Source: Psychromonas ingrahamii 37
Lineage (GTDB): Bacteria > Pseudomonadota > Gammaproteobacteria > Enterobacterales > Psychromonadaceae
DNA length: 64,000 bases
Assembly: GCF_000015285.1 (NCBI RefSeq)
Contig: NC_008709.1
Span: forward strand, 1,364,001-1,428,000
Direction of reading: 5' to 3'
Shown here: one piece after another, positions 19,258 through 29,540 of the stretch
How the letters are laid out: each line of letters starts with the position of its first letter
Position numbering within the stretch: position 1 is the stretch's first letter
Translations under genes and position numbers: made by a program
Notes under the pieces: generated by a model
Seen by the model: the letters and a program-made list of their open reading frames with translations, nothing else
What the model was told of the DNA's origin: nothing
The model's database searches: none

Positions 19258-20345
19258 GATTCAACTTTGAAGTGCATAACCACTAAGCGGCTATAGCCAC
19301 TCTATGTTCAGCCATTAATTTGGCTGGCGTTTTGTAATTTATTTTTTTCTTGGTCTATCATTGAGTTTGACTATTACATCTTGAACTTCTGATTGCGATA
19401 CTTTTTTGAAGTCTGTTGATTTCGGCCAATATTGTCGTAATAGACCATTGGTGTTTTCATTCAATCCTCGTTGCCACGAACAATAAGGATCTGCAAAATA
19501 CACATCACATTTCAAACTCTCAGTCATTTCTTCATGATAAGCAAATTCTTTACCATTATCCGCAGTGATCGTTATTACGGAATCTTCAAACGGTTTTAAC
19601 AAAGCAATGGTGGCTGCTGTGACTGTTTTCGCTGATTTGTCATCTACACGTGTCGACACCGTAAAGCTAGTTTTCCGCTCTACAATAGTGACCAACGCGC
19701 CACTGTGTCCTTTGCCAATAACCAGGTCGATTTCCCAATCACCCATTCTGCTTTTATCATCAACAACTTGTGGGCGCTCATCAATACTTATGCGGTTCTT
19801 TATAAACCCTCTACCTGCTTGCTTATCTTTATTGCGTGTTTGGTAAATTTTTCCTTTCCTACGTAATTTTTTGAATAAGTTACCGCCACTTTTTTTATCT
19901 GACCAAACATGCTGATAAATGGTTTCATGGCTAATATTGATGCTTTGTTGCTCTCTAAGCCTGCCTGATATCTGCTCTGGACTCCATTTTTCTTTAATTC
20001 TGGAGTCAATTAACTCAATGAGACTTGTTGTCATTTTAATGGCTTTACAAGCGGCTAATCGACGCTTATCTGATGATATTTGAGCTTGCTGAATACGATA
20101 ACCACGCTTACCTGTATTACGGGACAACTCCCTGCTAATCGTTGATTGGCTAACACTTAGTTACTTTGCTATTTTATTTTGACTCAAACCTGTTTTCTTT
20201 AAGGCATAAATCTGGCATCGTTGTTCGTAGGTCAGTTGGTTATATGTTTTCATTGTTGCATCTCTTGCCGGAGAAAAAGCGATTAGCATATAGTCAGCTG
20301 ACCGTTTTTTCTACCTATTCAAGTTATGCACTTATTATTTGAATC
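19258..20345 (-). mobile_element. IS30-family insertion sequence, decayed
   Basis: The element has imperfect terminal inverted repeats at 19258-19280 and 20323-20345, both reading GATTCAA inward and sharing AAGTGCATAAC. It carries a single transposase frame whose corrected stop lies 3 bases from the left end. A target duplication could not be recognised. With two lesions in the transposase, the copy is expected to be immobile unless helped in trans. Confidence 0.85.
19283..20253 (-). pseudogene. IS30-family transposase, interrupted
   Basis: The gene starts at ATG 20253 (MKTYNQLTYEQRCQIYALKK) with the N-terminal helix-turn-helix. It is interrupted by a TAA at 20163-20161, exactly in IAK-stop-LSVSQSTISREL, where the family has a sense codon. 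The catalytic DDE core follows (GDWEIDLVIG, ITADNGKEFAYH, and RGLNENTNGLLRQYWPK). Near the end a run of seven A bases puts the frame into a stop after NDRPRKK. One extra A would restore INYKTPAKLMAEH and a stop at 19283. The piece 19339-20127 alone is still open but lacks both ends. Confidence 0.9.
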
Positions 20346-21205: not shown

Positions 21206-22351
21206 TTATAACTCAAAGGTACTGAGATCTTCACTGTCAACTTTACTGTCAATTTGCCCTACCAGATAGGAACTGATTTCTGTCTCTTGCGGAGCAACCT
21301 GTACGTTATCACTTACCAGCCAATTATTAATCCATGGAATTGGGTTACTCTTAACTTCAAACTCAGGGGCATAACCAATTGCCTGCATACGCAGATTTGC
21401 AATATATTCAACATATTGGGACAATATTTGTTCATTTAGGCCAATCATTGATCCGTCTTTAAACAGGTACTTAGCCCAATCTTTTTCTTGCTGAGCCGCT
21501 TGTAAAAATATTTCCCGCCCTTCAGCAAAACATTCAATAGCAATCTCAGCCATTTCAGGATCATCTTTTCCATCAGCCCAAAGGTTTAAAATTTGTTGCG
21601 TCGAATTGAGGTGAAGGGCTTCGTCCCGCGCAATTAATTTTATTATTTTTGCATTGCCTTCTAATAGATCACGTTCGGCAAAGGCAAATGAACAAGCAAA
21701 AGAAACATAAAAACGAATGGCTTCTAACGCATTAACAGAGCAGATACAAAGGTAAAGTTTTTTCTTAATGGCGCGCAGGTTTAATTTTTCAACTTGATTT
21801 TCCAGATTGATATAATCAATGTCAGTTTGTTCCAATCCGTGCAGTTGCATAAACTGCGTAGCATGGATTAAAGCATCATAATAACCGGAAATATCCGTCG
21901 CGCGCTTTTGAATTTCTACGTTAGTGACGATATCTTCAAAAATTTCAGCCGGTTCAGTAAATAGATTACGTAAAATATGGGTGTAACTGCGACTGTGAAT
22001 TGTTTCAGAAAATGACCATGTCTCAATCCAAGTTTCAAGTTCTGGTAATGAAACAATAGGTAGTAGCGCAATGTTCGGGCTACGACCCTGAATTGAATCT
22101 AATAATGTTTGGTATTTTAGATTGGAGATGAAAATATGCTGCTCATGATCTGGTAAGTTTAAAAAATCGATACGGTCACGGCTTACATCAATCTCCTCTG
22201 GTCGCCAGAAAAACGATAACTGCTTTTCAATTAACATTTCAAATACAGCAAAGCGTTGTTGGTCATAACGCGCTACATTGACCGGATTGCCAAAGAACAT
22301 GGGTTCCTTCATTGCATCATTAGGAATTGTCGAGAAAGTTGTATAAGCCAT
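21206..22351 (-). CDS. nrdB: class Ia ribonucleotide reductase beta subunit
   Basis: NrdB carries the diiron-tyrosyl radical cofactor that drives nucleotide reduction in NrdA. The 381-residue protein has the metal ligands in the D85 region, E116 and H119 ([11 protein letters not shown]) and a second DEALH set. The radical tyrosine is Y123. In relatives nrdB directly follows nrdA; here about 4.9 kb with two opposite-strand genes lies between, and nrdB has its own upstream region with NrdR boxes and a hairpin (22445-22475) in the expected leader. yfaE follows after 9 bases. Confidence 0.97.
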
Positions 22352-22879: not shown

Positions 22880-23052
22880 CCTAGGCCAGTACGGTGCTTT
22901 CGCTCATATAAAATAAATTTTATTACAATAGACCTGATCTATTTTTGTGAAATAAGCTGTTCGTAATATCGCTCTTCTGATATATAGTATATTGATTCTA
23001 TTACTTATTAAAATCAATGTCATTTTATTATCAACCTTGAGGTGCTGTGGTT

Positions 23053-24057
23053 ATGACTCCTACTATCAGAATATTTACTTCCGCTTTATTTGTTCAATTT
23101 ACAGGCATTATACTGCTTACGCTCTTTATGGTGGGCTGCGGTGAAGACGCCGCACCGAAATTCTCAGTAGAATTAAAAAGCAAAGTGATACAGAACGAAC
23201 CACAAGATAAACACACTATTGCGCTGGTGATGAAAACACTCACCAATCCTTTTTTTAAAGAGATGGAACGGGGGGCTCGTCGGGCAGAAAAAGATTTAGG
23301 GATTAACTTATTGGTCAAAACTGCTGCACAAGAGACGTCCATACAGCAACAAATTGGCATCGTTGCTGACCTTATTGAGCTCAAGGTAGATGCACTAGTG
23401 ATTGCCCCGGGTGATTCTGTTGAGCTTATTCCAATTTTAAAGCACGCTCAAGATAAGGGTATTATTGTGATTAATATCGATAATCTTCTGGATCAAGAAT
23501 ACTCAAAAAAAGTGGGTCTGCTAAATGTTCCTTTTATCAGCGTTGACAATGAACTGGCAGCCTACAAGTCAACCAAAGTGCTAACTGAAAAATTAACTCA
23601 ACCAACAGAAGTGGCTATTATAGAAGGGATACGTGGTGCATTAAATGCTGAGCTTCGAAAAAACGGCGCTATCCGAGCATTTTCTGAAAGTAAATTTGCA
23701 ACCCTCGTTGCAACAGAAAGTGCCAATTGGAAAATTGATGAAGCCTTTGAACTGGCTGCAAAACTCTATAACAAAAACCCCAATATCGGCGCTATATTTT
23801 GCGCTAATGATATGATGGCATTGGGGGTTATTGAATACCTTCAATCGACGGGAAAAGATAATGTGCAGGTAGTGGCTTTTGATGCTATCCCCCAAGCCCT
23901 GAACGCGGTTCAATCAGGTGTGCTTCTCGCGACAGTAGATCAGGACGCGGCAGAGCAGGGCTATCAAGGTATTTTATCTGCCAACAACATTCTATCCGGC
24001 AAAAAAACACCCCTCAAGATTACCATTGAAGCCAAAATTATCACTAAACTAGAATAA
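23053..24057 (+). CDS. periplasmic-binding-protein-like lipoprotein (RbsB/LuxP-type fold)
   Basis: The 334-residue protein has a lipoprotein signal peptide ending LFMVGC with Cys29 as the lipid site. Two Rossmann-like lobes of the Peripla_BP_4 sugar-binding class follow (ALVMKTLTNPFFKEMERGA, LVIAPGDS, AIFCANDMMALGV, VVAFDAIPQALNAV, TVDQDAAEQGYQG). Such proteins bind ribose-like sugars or, in LuxP/LsrB, autoinducer-2. The ATG at 23053 has TGAGGTG 8-9 bases upstream; a GTG at 23047 is worse placed. No ABC permease or ATPase is near, and the stop is 18 bases before a membrane GGDEF-EAL gene, so a sensory rather than a transport role is inferred. The ligand is unknown. Confidence 0.88.
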   Translation: MTPTIRIFTSALFVQFTGIILLTLFMVGCGEDAAPKFSVELKSKVIQNEPQDKHTIALVMKTLTNPFFKEMERGARRAEKDLGINLLVKTAAQETSIQQQIGIVADLIELKVDALVIAPGDSVELIPILKHAQDKGIIVINIDNLLDQEYSKKVGLLNVPFISVDNELAAYKSTKVLTEKLTQPTEVAIIEGIRGALNAELRKNGAIRAFSESKFATLVATESANWKIDEAFELAAKLYNKNPNIGAIFCANDMMALGVIEYLQSTGKDNVQVVAFDAIPQALNAVQSGVLLATVDQDAAEQGYQGILSANNILSGKKTPLKITIEAKIITKLE

Positions 24058-24075
24058 TAGTTGCTCGAGGTGGTT

Positions 24076-26940
24076 ATGAATATCAGTTACAAAAAAATAT
24101 TTCCAAAATATATCGGTTTTCTGTTGATCGTTAGCGTGATCCCTCTGTTAGCCGTCGGGATTATTTCATATCATAATGCCAGCCAAGCAATCCAGGATGC
24201 CGCAAGACGATTCTCAACTGAGTTACTTAATCATAAAATTGAATTGTTGGAATCAAAATTAGATCAAGTTGAAAGTTTAATTGTTAATATATCCAGTGTA
24301 GAAGCGATAACCAATGCACTTGATGATGAATTCTCTGAGTCGAATACCTACACTGATCTCGCCACACAGGCCAAAATCGGCTACATACTAAATGGTTACT
24401 TAAGCCTTCAAGGGTTAGTTTCAATCGATATTTTCACTTCTGGTGGCACACAATACCATGTTGGCGACAGCTTAAATGTAGGAGAAAATAGAAACGACAT
24501 TAGAGAGCTGATTTGGCAAGAAACACTTGCTAGTCCGAAACAGATATATTGGTCAGGAATATTACCTAACGTTAATAAATCATCAAGCCATAAAATGGTG
24601 TTAGGCGCAGCAAAGATAATTAAAAAGATTGATCATATCTCATTGAAGACTCGACCTATTGCATTGATATTAGTCAGCATTAATATAGAAAATTTAAATG
24701 AAAGCATTACGGATAAAGAGAGCGATGGGGGCGTTAGCGCCTATCTTATCGATCAACGAGATAATATAGCTTATAGCCATAAAAAGAATGAGATAGGCCA
24801 ATCTGTAAAAGAGCTCTTTCCTTTTGCTGTCGCTAAGCAGCAGCGTTTGAACAGCTATACCTGGAATGGAAACGACTACTTTATTCAAAGCCGTGCAATC
24901 ACTAAGTATAATTGGCAAATTTTCAGCCTGATTCCTCAAAAAAATCTGCGCCGGGATATAAATAGAATAGGGGTTATTACCTTCTACCTTGTATTCGCGG
25001 GAATATTATTGACCTGTATTGCTGGTTGGTATTTTTCTCATAATATTGTACAGCCTATCAAAGATGTTATTACCGCCTACAAGGGCCTGCAAAATAAGAC
25101 GCTTAAACAGACAAAGAGACTTCCTGTAAGAAGTGATGATGAAGTGGGTGAATTGGTAAAATGGTTCAATACCTCTTTGGATAATCTGGAGGCGCGTGAG
25201 TTATACGAAAATGCGCTTAGGGAAAGTGAAGAGCGATATGCATTAGTTGCCAATGCTACAAATGAAGGCTTATGGGACTGGAATATCACAAAAAATGAGA
25301 TGTATTTTTCACCCCGGTTTTTTGCTCTTCTTGGAAAAAATGTAGATGAGAATAGTTCCTTAAATACTATCGAAGACTGGTATAAGCTAATTCATCCAAA
25401 GGATATTATTTTGGTAAAATCAGCAATAAATGATTGTTTGAATGGTAAAACAGCCCATTTCCAATGCGAGTACAGATTATTACATCATGATGGCCGTTAT
25501 CGTTGGATTCTTTCAAGGGGACTTGCCATTTGGGATAGTTCTGGTGAGGCAATACGAATGGCCGCTAGTCACAGTGATATTAGCGATCAGAGAGATGCAA
25601 AAGACAAATTAAGATATGATGCCTTTCACGATAGTCTTACGGGTCTTTATAATAGATCTTGGTTCGTAAGTTATTTACAGGAATTATTAAGTGGCCACTC
25701 AAGAAACAAAAATTTAAATTTTGCCGTCCTATTTTTAGATTTGGACCAATTCAAGCTAGTCAATGACACTCTCGGTCATGCTGCTGGTGACAAGTTACTC
25801 ATTTATGTTGCTGAGCGCTTAAAAAAATGTCTCCGTGAGACCGATATGCTTGCACGTTTTGGTGGGGATGAATTTGTTATTTTGCTTAAAAGTGATGAAA
25901 ATTATCGTTTTATACAAATTGCTGAGCGAATTATTGAACAACTTTCCTTATCGTTCTCAATAAATAATAACTATATCCACACAGGTGCAAGTATTGGTAT
26001 CACGCTACTTGAGACAGGGTATCAGGATGCTTACGAAATGCTAAGGGATGCCGATATCGCAATGTATCGAGCTAAGCTCAATGGTAAAAATTGCCACATT
26101 GTTTTTGATGAAGAGATGCGTTCTCAACTGCTTAAGCAAGTTGACACCGAAAAATTGCTGCGACAAGCCATCGAAAACGATGAATTGACACTCTATTATC
26201 AGCCTATTATCTCATTGTCTGATGGGAGACTTACTGGTTTTGAAGCGCTATTAAGATGGAACAATCCAATACTTGGCAATGTTAGCCCTGATGTTTTTAT
26301 TCCGTTAGCTGAAGCTAACGGTACTATTATTCAGTTGGGCCAGTGGGTCTTTGAATCCGCATTTATTCAATTGAAAGCGTGGAAAGAAGAGTTTACAGGC
26401 TTTGATAACTTAGTCTTGTCGATTAATATGTCACCCGTACAGTTTCTCGATAAACTATTTTTGAAAAATTTTCCTAAACTAATGGATACCTACAATATTA
26501 AAGGCTCAGAGATAGCCATTGAGATTACAGAAACCGCAATCATTCACAAAAAAGCATTAGCAATCAAAGTTATAAATGATTTTAAAAAGTACGGTATTCA
26601 CATTCATTTGGATGATTTCGGAACAGGCTACTCCTCTATTAGCCACTTGGTTGGGTTTCAAATAGATCTTATAAAAATTGATCGTTCGTTTATTGAGCTG
26701 CTCGGTGTAAATTCGAAGGAAGATAAGCTCGTTCAAGCAATCATTAATTTTGCTCATAACCTTGGTATTAAATGCACCGCAGAGGGAATAGAAGAAGCAG
26801 CCCAACAAAGATTATTAAGTATCGCAAACTGTGATTACGCTCAGGGTTACTTTATAGCGAAGCCTGCACCAGCCAGTCAATTAACGGAATTTATACGCGA
26901 GCATTTATCTAGATCTAAAGGTTTGCTACCCCCTGAATAA
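24076..26940 (+). CDS. membrane GGDEF-EAL protein with periplasmic sensor, HAMP and PAS domains
   Basis: The 954-residue protein has a first membrane helix at about 10-28 and a roughly 270-residue periplasmic region, probably a double Cache fold. A second helix lies at about 299-320, then HAMP (to about 375), PAS (about 383-505), GGDEF (from 516, with an intact RFGGDEF whose GGDEF is near residue 597) and EAL (EAL near 723, with DDFGTGYSS). Both catalytic signatures look complete, so it may make and degrade cyclic di-GMP. The ATG at 24076 is preceded by CGAGGTGG, much like the neighbour's site. Coupling to the lipoprotein upstream recalls NspS-MbaA and LuxP-LuxQ in logic. Confidence 0.92.
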   Translation: MNISYKKIFPKYIGFLLIVSVIPLLAVGIISYHNASQAIQDAARRFSTELLNHKIELLESKLDQVESLIVNISSVEAITNALDDEFSESNTYTDLATQAKIGYILNGYLSLQGLVSIDIFTSGGTQYHVGDSLNVGENRNDIRELIWQETLASPKQIYWSGILPNVNKSSSHKMVLGAAKIIKKIDHISLKTRPIALILVSINIENLNESITDKESDGGVSAYLIDQRDNIAYSHKKNEIGQSVKELFPFAVAKQQRLNSYTWNGNDYFIQSRAITKYNWQIFSLIPQKNLRRDINRIGVITFYLVFAGILLTCIAGWYFSHNIVQPIKDVITAYKGLQNKTLKQTKRLPVRSDDEVGELVKWFNTSLDNLEARELYENALRESEERYALVANATNEGLWDWNITKNEMYFSPRFFALLGKNVDENSSLNTIEDWYKLIHPKDIILVKSAINDCLNGKTAHFQCEYRLLHHDGRYRWILSRGLAIWDSSGEAIRMAASHSDISDQRDAKDKLRYDAFHDSLTGLYNRSWFVSYLQELLSGHSRNKNLNFAVLFLDLDQFKLVNDTLGHAAGDKLLIYVAERLKKCLRETDMLARFGGDEFVILLKSDENYRFIQIAERIIEQLSLSFSINNNYIHTGASIGITLLETGYQDAYEMLRDADIAMYRAKLNGKNCHIVFDEEMRSQLLKQVDTEKLLRQAIENDELTLYYQPIISLSDGRLTGFEALLRWNNPILGNVSPDVFIPLAEANGTIIQLGQWVFESAFIQLKAWKEEFTGFDNLVLSINMSPVQFLDKLFLKNFPKLMDTYNIKGSEIAIEITETAIIHKKALAIKVINDFKKYGIHIHLDDFGTGYSSISHLVGFQIDLIKIDRSFIELLGVNSKEDKLVQAIINFAHNLGIKCTAEGIEEAAQQRLLSIANCDYAQGYFIAKPAPASQLTEFIREHLSRSKGLLPPE

Positions 26941-27266
26941 TGGTTCTGCTCAATTGCCTATAGAAGGATTGGCTATCCAGTCTTTCCTATTCGTAAATTA
27001 TCGGCAGGTGTTGATAACGGTAACATCTGCTCCCATAAAAAGTCGCAGGTAAAAGTGGTAAAAACTGAGTATCATATTGAGGGTGAGGTACTATTTTTAC
27101 TGAATATTTCATGTTTTTACTGTATCTCATAATGAAATAAATGCAGCAAAGAGATATAAATAGAGTCTAAAAGAAAGGATGTGTAAAACACATCCTTTAA
27201 GTTATTTAAATATAAGTATTACTTCAACTTATCCACAAAAATGAGACATTAATAAAAACTCACCAG
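26941..27266. other. gap between the GGDEF-EAL gene and nrdA (convergent)
   Basis: This 326-base stretch holds a bidirectional terminator (27174-27198) and a perfect DnaA-box 9-mer TTATCCACA near 27229-27237. No gene is visible and no insertion-sequence end or target duplication was found that would explain the split of nrdA and nrdB. Confidence 0.5.
27174..27198. terminator. bidirectional terminator between convergent genes
   Basis: AAAGGATGTG and CACATCCTTT pair perfectly around TAAAA. On the minus strand the stem is followed by a T-rich CTTTTAG stretch, fitting the end of nrdA, and A-rich sequence on the other side gives some T tract for the plus direction. Confidence 0.8.
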
Positions 27267-29540
27267 TCATATTTTACATGCACCGCCAGCACAGTCATCG
27301 GCTTCATCTATGATGTTTTCATCATCTGCACCATCGCGGGTATTGTGGTAATACAATGTTTTAACACCCATTTTATAAGCAACCAACAAGTCTTTTAAAA
27401 GATTAGTCATTGGCACTCGCCCTTCAGAAAAGCGTTTTGGATCGTAATTGGTATTTGCTGAAATTGCCTGATCGATGAATTTTTGCATTATGCCAACTAA
27501 TTCAAGGTAACCTTGATTGTTTGGAATATCCCACAATAACTCATAGTTTTGTTTATATTTTTCATACTCAGGCACCACTTGCTTTAAAATACCATCTTTA
27601 CTTGCTTTAACGCTTACAAAACCGCGTGGTGGTTCAATACCATTAGTTGCATTAGATATTTGACTCGATGTTTCAGAGGGCATTAATGCCGATAAGGTAG
27701 AATTACGCAAACCGTGTTTAACAATATCACTGCGCAGGGTTTCCCAATCGAGATGATACTGCTCATCACAAATATTATCTAAGGACTTTTTGTATGTATC
27801 GAGCGGTAAAATACCCTGTGAGTAACGTGTTTCGTTAAATTTAGGGCATGCACCACGCTCAAAAGCTAGTTTGTTAGACGCTTTTAAAAGATAATATTGA
27901 ATGGCTTCAAAGGTTTTATGGGTTAGATTATTGGCGCTGCCATCTGAGTATTTAACACCGTTTTTAGCTAAATAATAAGCGAAGTTGATAACCCCTATGC
28001 CTAGCGTTCGACGTGCCATACTGCTGTTTTCAGCTGCTTTGACCGGGTAATCCTGATAATCCAATAAGCTATCTAATGCGCGCACAGCAAGTTCTGCAAG
28101 CTCTTCCAGTTCATCAAGTGACTCAATTGCGCCTAAGTTAAATGCCGATAAGGTACACAGGGCAATTTCACCTTCTTCATCCATGATGTGCTGCAAGGGT
28201 TTCGTTGGCAGGGCAATTTCAAGACATAAGTTACTTTGACGAATAGGGGCAACCTTACTGTCAAAGGGACTGTGTGTATTACAGTGATCTACATTTTGAA
28301 TGTAAATACGGCCTGTACTGGCACGCTCCTGCATTAAGAGAGAGAACAACTCAACGGCTGAAATACTTTTTTGACGAATATCAGGATCACCTTCGTATAA
28401 ATTATATAAACGCTCAAATTCATCTTGATCTTCAAAAAAAGCATCGTATAAACCGGGGACATCCGAGGGACTGAACAAGGCGACATTTTTTTTGTCTATC
28501 AGGCGCTGGTAGAATAAGCGGCTTAGTTGCACCCCATAGTCGAGATGACGTATGCGGTTGGAGTCAATACCACGATTATTTTTTAACACCAATAAAGATT
28601 CAACTTCCAAATGCCAAACAGGGTAAAAAACCGTCGCTGCACCGCCGCGTACGCCACCCTGAGAGCATGACTTTACCGCGGTTTGGAAGTGTTTGTAAAA
28701 TGGGATACAACCTGTGTGGAAGGCCTCACCACCTCGAATAGCACTGCCCAATGCACGAATACGACCAGCATTAATGCCGATTCCGGCGCGTTGTGAAACA
28801 TATTTAACAATTGCGCTTGATGTCGCGTTGATCGAATCAAGACTATCACCCGTTTCAATCAATACGCATGAACTAAATTGACGCGTTGGCGTGCGCACTC
28901 CTGCCATAATAGGCGTGGGTAATGAAATTTTAAATTGTGAAACCGCATCATAAAAACGTCTAACATAAGATAAACGTATGGCAGGCTCATAATTAGAAAA
29001 CAGACAGGCTGCCACCATCATGTAAAGAAATTGTGCACTTTCATAAATATCACCGGTGACACGATTTTGAATGAGGTATTTACCTTCAAGCTGTTTTACT
29101 GCGGCATAGGAAAATTTTAAATCACGATCATGAACGATAAATTTTTCCATCTCTTCAAACTCTTGCTTGCTATAGTCTTCAAGAAGATGCATATCGTACT
29201 TGCCTTTAGAACACATTTTACTAACGTGTTCAAAGATACTTGGCGGCGTAAAACGTCGATAAGCTTTTTTACGCAAATGGAATACCGCAAGATGTGCCGC
29301 TAAATATTGGTAGTCTGGTGATGTCTCTGAGATAAGGTCAGCGGCCGCTTTAATAATAGTCTCATGTATATCATCGGTACGGATACCATCATAAAACTGA
29401 ATATGTGAATTTAATTCAACCTGAGAGACTGAAACATTTTTTAAGCCTTCTGCAGCCCAAGTGATAACTCGGTGAATCTTATCAAGATCAATGCGTTCTC
29501 TTTTGCCATTTCGTTTTGTGACAAATAGGTTTTTTTTCAT
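27267..29540 (-). CDS. nrdA: class Ia ribonucleotide reductase alpha subunit
   Basis: NrdA reduces ribonucleoside diphosphates. The 757-residue protein has the N-terminal ATP-cone (FVTKRNGKRERIDLDKI), which sets dATP feedback. It also has the redox-active cysteines in FSSCVLIETGDS and ALCTLSAFNLGA, the thiyl cysteine in QSNLCLEI, and the flexible C-terminal tail CAGGAC used for thioredoxin/glutaredoxin reduction. Upstream lie a near-perfect NrdR box pair and two DnaA boxes. It is the expected neighbour of ubiG, but nrdB is 4.9 kb away, behind two genes of opposite strand. Confidence 0.97.
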   Translation of the reverse strand: MKKNLFVTKRNGKRERIDLDKIHRVITWAAEGLKNVSVSQVELNSHIQFYDGIRTDDIHETIIKAAADLISETSPDYQYLAAHLAVFHLRKKAYRRFTPPSIFEHVSKMCSKGKYDMHLLEDYSKQEFEEMEKFIVHDRDLKFSYAAVKQLEGKYLIQNRVTGDIYESAQFLYMMVAACLFSNYEPAIRLSYVRRFYDAVSQFKISLPTPIMAGVRTPTRQFSSCVLIETGDSLDSINATSSAIVKYVSQRAGIGINAGRIRALGSAIRGGEAFHTGCIPFYKHFQTAVKSCSQGGVRGGAATVFYPVWHLEVESLLVLKNNRGIDSNRIRHLDYGVQLSRLFYQRLIDKKNVALFSPSDVPGLYDAFFEDQDEFERLYNLYEGDPDIRQKSISAVELFSLLMQERASTGRIYIQNVDHCNTHSPFDSKVAPIRQSNLCLEIALPTKPLQHIMDEEGEIALCTLSAFNLGAIESLDELEELAELAVRALDSLLDYQDYPVKAAENSSMARRTLGIGVINFAYYLAKNGVKYSDGSANNLTHKTFEAIQYYLLKASNKLAFERGACPKFNETRYSQGILPLDTYKKSLDNICDEQYHLDWETLRSDIVKHGLRNSTLSALMPSETSSQISNATNGIEPPRGFVSVKASKDGILKQVVPEYEKYKQNYELLWDIPNNQGYLELVGIMQKFIDQAISANTNYDPKRFSEGRVPMTNLLKDLLVAYKMGVKTLYYHNTRDGADDENIIDEADDCAGGACKI

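Follow-up and report, generated by a model that had tools for sequence, protein, structure and literature searches.

A Peripla_BP_4 lipoprotein gene beside a dCache-GGDEF-EAL receptor gene in Psychromonas ingrahamii 37: a candidate binding-protein-activated receptor

The gene pair and its parts

The genome of Psychromonas ingrahamii 37 is a single contig of 4.56 Mb, and a stretch of 64 kb of it (NC_008709.1, positions 1,364,001 to 1,428,000, here called the window) carries two adjoining genes on the same strand. The first encodes a lipoprotein of the Peripla_BP_4 family, a sugar-type binding protein, and the second encodes a membrane receptor with a periplasmic dCache sensor and with GGDEF and EAL domains for the synthesis and breakdown of cyclic di-GMP (c-di-GMP). 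Close homologues of the lipoprotein lie beside the same sensor domain at nearly all loci found, and the two genes probably form a receptor that is activated by a solute-binding protein. The features of the pair are collected in Table 1.

Table 1. Features of the lipoprotein-receptor pair, in window positions
Feature	Position	Strand	Basis
Presumed ribosome-binding sequence GAGGTG, lipoprotein gene	23039..23044	+	read from sequence
Peripla_BP_4 lipoprotein, 334 aa, presumed sugar receptor	23053..24057	+	open reading frame (ORF); Pfam 9.5e-54; fold model (mean pLDDT 90.6, top match 5dte)
Lipobox cysteine, residue 29	23137..23139	+	invariant in 37-row alignment
Presumed ribosome-binding sequence GAGGTG, receptor gene	24067..24072	+	read from sequence
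Receptor, 954 aa from ATG	24076..26940	+	ORF; membrane helix, periplasmic dCache, membrane helix, HAMP, PAS, GGDEF, EAL
Periplasmic dCache_1 sensor domain, residues 39-284	24190..24927	+	Pfam 3e-9 (below cut-off); fold model, PDB matches, homologues
HAMP, residues 321-373	25036..25194	+	Pfam 0.003, below cut-off; passes in 22/29 partners scanned
PAS_3, residues 409-497	25300..25566	+	Pfam 1.2e-19
GGDEF domain with GGDEF and RxxD, residues 516-672	25621..26091	+	Pfam 7.5e-48; motifs
EAL domain with EAL, DDFG, KID, AEGIE and QGY, residues 695-930	26158..26865	+	Pfam 2.9e-70; motifs

Both reading frames lie where a first-pass annotation, made from the sequence alone, had placed them. Counted from the ATG starts at 23053 and 24076, the receptor gene begins 18 bases 3' of the lipoprotein stop (24057); the ORF list places the starts further upstream, at a GTG (23047) and a TTG (24061), respectively. 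The description of the two ribosome-binding sequences as nearly the same is fair, if inexact, as GAGGTG precedes both genes at different distances from the ATG (8 bases for the lipoprotein and 3 bases for the receptor). The lipid anchor and the sugar-binding type are borne out by the lipobox M-V-G-C, which ends in Cys29, and by the Peripla_BP_4 match. An RbsC-like permease was not found in the window by tblastn, in agreement with the earlier remark that no transporter genes are near, and other transporter types were not searched there. Promoter-like sites show no excess (20 against 18.1 in shuffles). Terminator-like sites number 6 against 3.1 in shuffles, one of them downstream of the receptor gene (27174-27198), and were not used as evidence.

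The proposed receptor architecture also holds, with PAS_3, GGDEF and EAL above the Pfam cut-offs and with dCache_1 and HAMP below them. The RxxD site and the GGDEF, EAL, DDFG, KID, AEGIE and QGY motifs are all present, and these GGDEF and EAL motifs are taken here to mark active enzymes; the EAL motif pattern is strict and was used for the window receptor only. The fold model of the sensor has a predicted local distance difference test (pLDDT) score of 85.8, and long helices flank the sensor on both sides; the membrane spans of the receptor are presumed ones. Among the matches listed, the model resembles dCache domains of chemoreceptors, of sensor kinases and of an Aeromonas diguanylate cyclase, and the best 50 of the 908 fold matches are mostly amino-acid chemoreceptor domains. 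In the 29 partner receptors that were scanned with Pfam (the partners are described below), HAMP is above the cut-off in 22 and dCache_1 in 15, the latter divided over 12 of 20 kinases and 3 of 9 GGDEF-EAL proteins. dCache_1 is unlisted in four of the 29 (L020, L040, L057 and L098) and HAMP in three (L049, L051 and L098).

Association of lipoprotein and sensor across genomes

A scan of species genomes that was seeded with the lipoprotein alone resulted in 79 loci, numbered with the prefix L, which divide by identity into 36 close loci at 46-68% (L019-L052, L054 and L057) and 43 weaker loci at 21-37%. Using tblastn with the window sensor, the sensor domain was found beside the lipoprotein in 35 of the 36 close loci versus none of the 43 weaker ones. 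The lone exception, L024, has only about 190 bases of contig left beyond the lipoprotein gene. The partner gene lies downstream in 33 of the 35 pairs and upstream in two, both cyanobacterial (L031 and L042), and the intergenic gap is below 100 bases in 30, the others being L027, L028, L035, L046 and L048. An RbsC-like permease, searched with a query from L002 of the window genome in flanks of up to 6 kb (shorter at contig ends), occurs near none of the 36 close loci versus 29 of the 43 weaker ones. Fisher tests give p values of about 1e-21 for the pairing with the sensor and 2e-11 for the permease, neither corrected for relatedness. Chance adjacency is ruled out by the contrast between 35/36 and 0/43.

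The lipoprotein-sensor pair is found in five phyla. The first-pass annotation had coupled the lipoprotein to the receptor and proposed a search for co-occurrence, and this coupling is supported by the 35 close homologues that adjoin the same sensor domain. It had also named an outcome that would speak against the idea, namely homologues lying mainly with permeases of ATP-binding cassette (ABC) transporters; this is so for the distant homologues and not for the close ones. Judged from the record titles, phototrophic groups supply 13 of the 36 close loci, comprising three from heliobacteria, eight from Oscillochloridaceae and two from cyanobacteria.

Within the order, a profile of 35 sensors (L027, L024 and L098 left out) was searched against 394 genomes at an E-value of 1e-15 and gave five matches, which are the window's own sensor and those of the genomes G042, G065, G188 and G029. 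A Peripla_BP_4-type lipoprotein lies directly beside the sensor gene in G042, G065 and G188; the receptor of G065 is a GGDEF-EAL protein and those of G042 and G188 are kinases. The lipoprotein itself was found in one of 36 further genomes of the order, again G042, at 41%. In 398 genomes of the phylum, a lipoprotein profile (E 1e-65) scored the window protein at 480.8 bits and the other 21 matches, from 20 genomes, at 270.9 bits at most. No sensor lies within 1.5 kb at any of these 21 loci; an ABC ATPase signature is present at 18 of them. With at most about five candidates scored per genome, the profile searches may miss weak copies.

The receptors that accompany the lipoprotein differ in their output. 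The Pfam assignments cover 28 of the 35 partners, together with L098, L134 and L135. L019, L032, L041 and L050 are assigned to GGDEF(-EAL) from the tblastn scan, with L019 ending before its EAL; L029 is counted as a kinase by its close kinship to L025 on the sensor tree; and L027 and L048 are cut short and left out of the count. Among the 33 assigned partners, 13 are GGDEF(-EAL) proteins and 20 are histidine kinases, many of them with receiver domains. The GGDEF(-EAL) partners belong to Gammaproteobacteria, Neisseriaceae and Oscillochloridaceae, and the kinase partners to other Chloroflexota, Bacillota, Cyanobacteriota, Aestuariispira, Undibacterium and one assembly that is labelled Deltaproteobacteria (placed in Myxococcota). 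The earlier claim of a c-di-GMP output stands for the window receptor, with its GGDEF and EAL motifs, and falls short for the family as a whole, in which c-di-GMP is only one of the outputs and histidine kinases are commoner. At L037:6906-9726, which was counted as a kinase, the reading frame seems to be broken into two ORFs, and the ATPase part is missing from the first. Two Desulfosporosinus loci have a further gene immediately after that of the paired kinase (L036:9789-11468 and L052:9777-11450), which encodes a receiver-EAL protein with a weak GGDEF match; a phosphorelay may offer a second route to c-di-GMP there.

The distribution of the outputs was placed on a tree of 36 sensors (L027 and L024 left out). 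The GGDEF-EAL label requires three changes on this tree (3-3 in bootstraps), and the starred branches force one. A single clade of all 14 GGDEF-EAL sensors, and with it a single origin of the GGDEF-EAL partners on the sensor tree, is rejected by the approximately unbiased (AU) test (p-AU 0.0017), which was run after the tree was seen, with labels taken from the output domains and with long branches present, L098 above all. The outputs have therefore most likely been exchanged more than once. In the lipoprotein tree, one branch with a support of 94/93, not starred, parts 40 paired lipoproteins from 14 sensor-less binding proteins, which are chosen ones (four of the 43 weak loci and ten of the 21 phylum loci). 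L091 was left out of this tree, and the row of L039 runs slightly past its stop (X at the stop). The distances among lipoproteins and among sensors are correlated (Mantel r 0.825 over 34 pairs, with none of 5000 permutations as high).

Lipoprotein pocket, sensor and candidate ligand

In addition to its top match, the fold model of the lipoprotein matches 4yle, the allose-binding proteins 1rpj and 8wl7 and the ribose-binding protein 2dri. Model confidence is low between the lipid anchor and the domain (mean pLDDT 48 for residues 31-40 and 56 for residues 41-50), as would be expected of a flexible linker. Eleven residues, K61, N65, F67, E94, D143, N144, R202, W226, N252, D277 and Q297, are identical in all 37 aligned lipoproteins (L039 left out of this alignment), and from the ribose and allose complexes these positions are presumed to touch the sugar. 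In a phmmer alignment, the D-allose-binding protein of Escherichia coli has the same residue at ten of the eleven positions, N144 being the exception. The pocket residues were also considered as a mark of the paired clade; this is ruled out, since 7 of the 14 comparison proteins carry all eleven. The sharing of the pocket with ABC-linked proteins suggests that the paired lipoproteins bind what those transporters carry. The models of known families give scores far below their cut-offs for the lipoprotein (D-allose, 187.4 bits versus 335; RbsB, 137.1 versus 337), and an allose- or ribose-like sugar is our guess for the ligand.

The same pocket and fold could belong to an orphan transport lipoprotein that feeds sugar to a distant ABC transporter, with the receptor gene as an incidental neighbour. 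The fold is that of ABC-linked sugar-binding proteins, the eleven residues are those of seven ABC-associated ones, and the genome has 15 other PF13407 matches; in the four PF13407 neighbourhoods that were checked (1.5-kb flanks), an RbsC-like permease is present at L001 and L004, L002 is the source of the query, and L005 has none. This explanation is disfavoured and very improbable, as no RbsC-like permease lies near any of the 36 close homologues, the paired clade branches apart from the 14 comparison proteins and the same sensor adjoins the lipoprotein in five phyla.

The first-pass annotation had called the lipoprotein LuxP-like and had considered autoinducer-2 (AI-2) next to a sugar. The name LuxP-like is too specific: LuxP is absent among the best 25 of 28 family matches and the best 60 of 73 PDB matches listed, the LsrB model gives the lipoprotein 42.4 bits (cut-off 384), and binders of the D-allose and ribose types are the nearest among solved structures. 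For these reasons, a sugar is a better guess than AI-2, which has no specific support as the ligand although luxS is present in the genome. An AI-2 receptor system of the LuxP or LsrB kind wired to c-di-GMP would draw on this gene (LuxS 190.2 bits) and on the Peripla_BP_4 domain, which is common to LuxP and LsrB in the account of PMC12268683. The LsrB score, the missing LuxP and the allose- and ribose-type neighbours argue against such a system, as does the agreement of the presumed pocket with the D-allose-binding protein, and it is highly unlikely. Other families of binding proteins fit no better: the lipoprotein scores 34.4 bits (cut-off 200) and 25.7 bits (cut-off 310) with the TorT models, and the polyamine-binding (PotD-like) family is absent among the matches listed for it, in which Peripla_BP families are above cut-off.

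The sensor raises a further explanation, in which the dCache domain has a ligand of its own (an amino acid, an amine, a purine or AI-2) and the receptor is not controlled by the lipoprotein, which would serve as a second input or as an accessory. The dCache fold is backed by the PDB matches, mostly to amino-acid chemoreceptor domains, and dCache_1 domains are described in PMC8846402 as binding small ligands in diguanylate cyclases. A dispensable lipoprotein would leave the 35 pairings in 36 loci unexplained. In addition, the RxWY-type motif of the membrane-distal module, whose residues in amino-acid and AI-2 dCache domains are given in PMC12268683, is not in the window sensor, and a permissive search of 35 sensors gave one chance-like RLFF (L054). 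The absence of this motif fits, without proving it, a sensor whose input is a partner protein and not a small molecule. Binding of a separate ligand by the dCache domain is an unlikely explanation, less so than the two above.

The residue after the lipobox cysteine (window 23140-23142) bears on where the lipoprotein is sent. According to the E. coli sorting rule, lipoproteins without Asp after the Cys go to the outer membrane. Asp is found in 3 of 11 proteobacterial lipoproteins (L045, L049 and L050) and not in the other eight, the window's included, which by this rule would be sent to the outer membrane, facing the receptor in the inner membrane.

Proposed working, known systems and genomic surroundings

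The reading that we prefer, and hold to be probable, is that the two genes encode a receptor activated by a solute-binding protein, similar in its working to NspS-MbaA or LuxP-LuxQ but a member of neither family. Held by a flexible tether on the periplasmic side, the lipoprotein would bind a monosaccharide in its cleft and dock on the dCache domain of the receptor, at the part furthest from the membrane. Once closed on its sugar, the lipoprotein could alter its fit to dCache and shift the receptor dimer; HAMP and PAS would then relay this movement into the cytoplasm and alter how c-di-GMP synthesis by GGDEF is balanced against breakdown by EAL. Physical contact and signal transfer are proposed by analogy with NspS-MbaA, LuxP-LuxQ, TorT-TorS and XylFII-LytS. 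That the sugar-bound form raises c-di-GMP is a guess, only slightly favoured over the opposite. A wider claim, to which we give about even weight, is that the pair is a portable input cassette, in which one lipoprotein clade and one dCache clade travel together across at least five phyla, the output has been swapped between GGDEF-EAL and histidine kinase more than once and the sugar pocket is nearly unchanged.

Several points weigh against the preferred reading. Adjacency of genes is no proof of contact, and dCache domains often bind small ligands directly, so that the receptor might sense without the lipoprotein. The pocket is complete in the seven comparison binding proteins mentioned above, each with an ABC signature near, and the distant paired lipoproteins L134 and L135 each differ at two of the eleven positions. 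An ABC ATPase signature lies near the close loci L023 and L036, and an ATPase-like ORF was seen by eye near L054. In G029, the match to the sensor is partial (profile 203-341) and falls in a chemoreceptor-like gene, near which no binding protein was seen. The pair is also rare: in a set of 398 genomes from the phylum, the sensor was found in the window genome and in none of the other 397 (E 1e-20), and the lipoprotein was found in none of 23 genomes of the same genus (E 1e-40). Over 515 more distant pairs, with lipoproteins more than 40% diverged, the Mantel r is 0.53, and the correlation is confounded because shared species history explains part of it.

Multiple systems are known in which a binding protein controls a membrane receptor. 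In LuxP-LuxQ, which responds to AI-2, the Peripla_BP_4-type LuxP docks on a periplasmic sensor of the tandem-PAS type in the hybrid kinase LuxQ. The window pair likewise joins a Peripla_BP_4-type protein to the periplasmic sensor of a membrane receptor, whereas LuxQ is absent among the best 50 of 908 fold matches and the 25 profile matches listed for the sensor. NspS-MbaA of Vibrio cholerae, also present in Sinorhizobium meliloti, has been described as a periplasmic binding protein with a membrane c-di-GMP receptor, in which NspS binds norspermidine. As in the window, the binding protein there acts with a membrane GGDEF-EAL receptor, and the window receptor has intact motifs. MbaA is a GGDEF-EAL protein and NspS belongs to another family of binding proteins; the binder studied here is a lipoprotein of the Peripla_BP_4 sugar type, and its dCache sensor has relatives that also carry kinases. 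In TorT-TorS, the membrane receptor TorS, a kinase, is controlled by a periplasmic protein of the LacI type that has no transporter; the lipoprotein differs in being far below the TorT cut-offs. The lipoprotein also matches, at 2e-10, PDB entry 2x7x ('SENSOR PROTEIN'), presumably a hybrid two-component sensor of Bacteroides. The binding domain of that protein belongs to the same superfamily and likewise serves a receptor, although it is fused to the receptor and here it is a separate lipoprotein.

Two further systems are the XylFII-LytS system, the output of which is a kinase, and the Scr system, which has a different binding protein plus an enzyme that makes the signal. The XylFII structure 5xsj matches the lipoprotein at 3.6e-23, and in XylFII-LytS the membrane kinase is under the control of a sugar-binding protein from the lipoprotein's superfamily, whereas the LytS sensor is not among the matches listed for the sensor here. 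The ligand of XylFII-LytS is given as D-xylose in the title of a PNAS paper cited in PMC11113362. The latter article reports, from Trimble and McCarter, that in ScrA-ScrB-ScrC of Vibrio parahaemolyticus a binding protein controls a cyclase/phosphodiesterase, and it treats the activation of cyclases or phosphodiesterases by solute-binding proteins (SBPs) as already known (PMC11113362). In the relevant passages of a 2022 census of c-di-GMP sensing, SBP_bac_3 is said to be the sole domain of the binding-protein clan studied in c-di-GMP networks, and the sugar inputs named act via the phosphotransferase system (PMC8846402). Among the open-licence PubMed Central titles and abstract starts listed, no description was found of a pairing between a Peripla_BP_4 lipoprotein and a GGDEF-EAL or dCache receptor, which is weak evidence of absence. 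To our knowledge, the inputs of many c-di-GMP enzymes are unknown. If the cassette reading is true, the pair would be the first dedicated sensor of extracellular sugar for c-di-GMP that acts via a binding protein, and its relatives would make up a series of naturally occurring receptors in which one input serves different outputs. As the lipoprotein is conserved and its sugar pocket apparently intact, the input can be tested using one purified protein, and as the same pair feeds cyclases or kinases depending on the lineage, the receptors are natural chimaeras in which one periplasmic event leads to two kinds of output.

The pair lies between genes named nrdB (window 21206-22351, - strand) and nrdA (27267-29540, - strand); these names rest on sequence resemblance and, for nrdA, on one plasmid match. 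The plasmid search gave a single record, which matches the nrdA part only. An nrdB match is present in 14 of the 15 same-genus genomes searched, of which seven have nrdA directly before nrdB and seven have a similar multi-gene block between them, and because these arrangements differ, the interval is a variable spot in the genus. Close to the pair, at window 19339-20127, lies a transposase-like ORF, presumably of IS30 appearance. This nearby ORF fits the absence of the pair from the same-genus genomes searched. Elsewhere, at G000:C1:1499681-1507343, three GGDEF matches with similar scores stand in a row, and the GGDEF matches of the genome number 57 in all, a few of them fragments.

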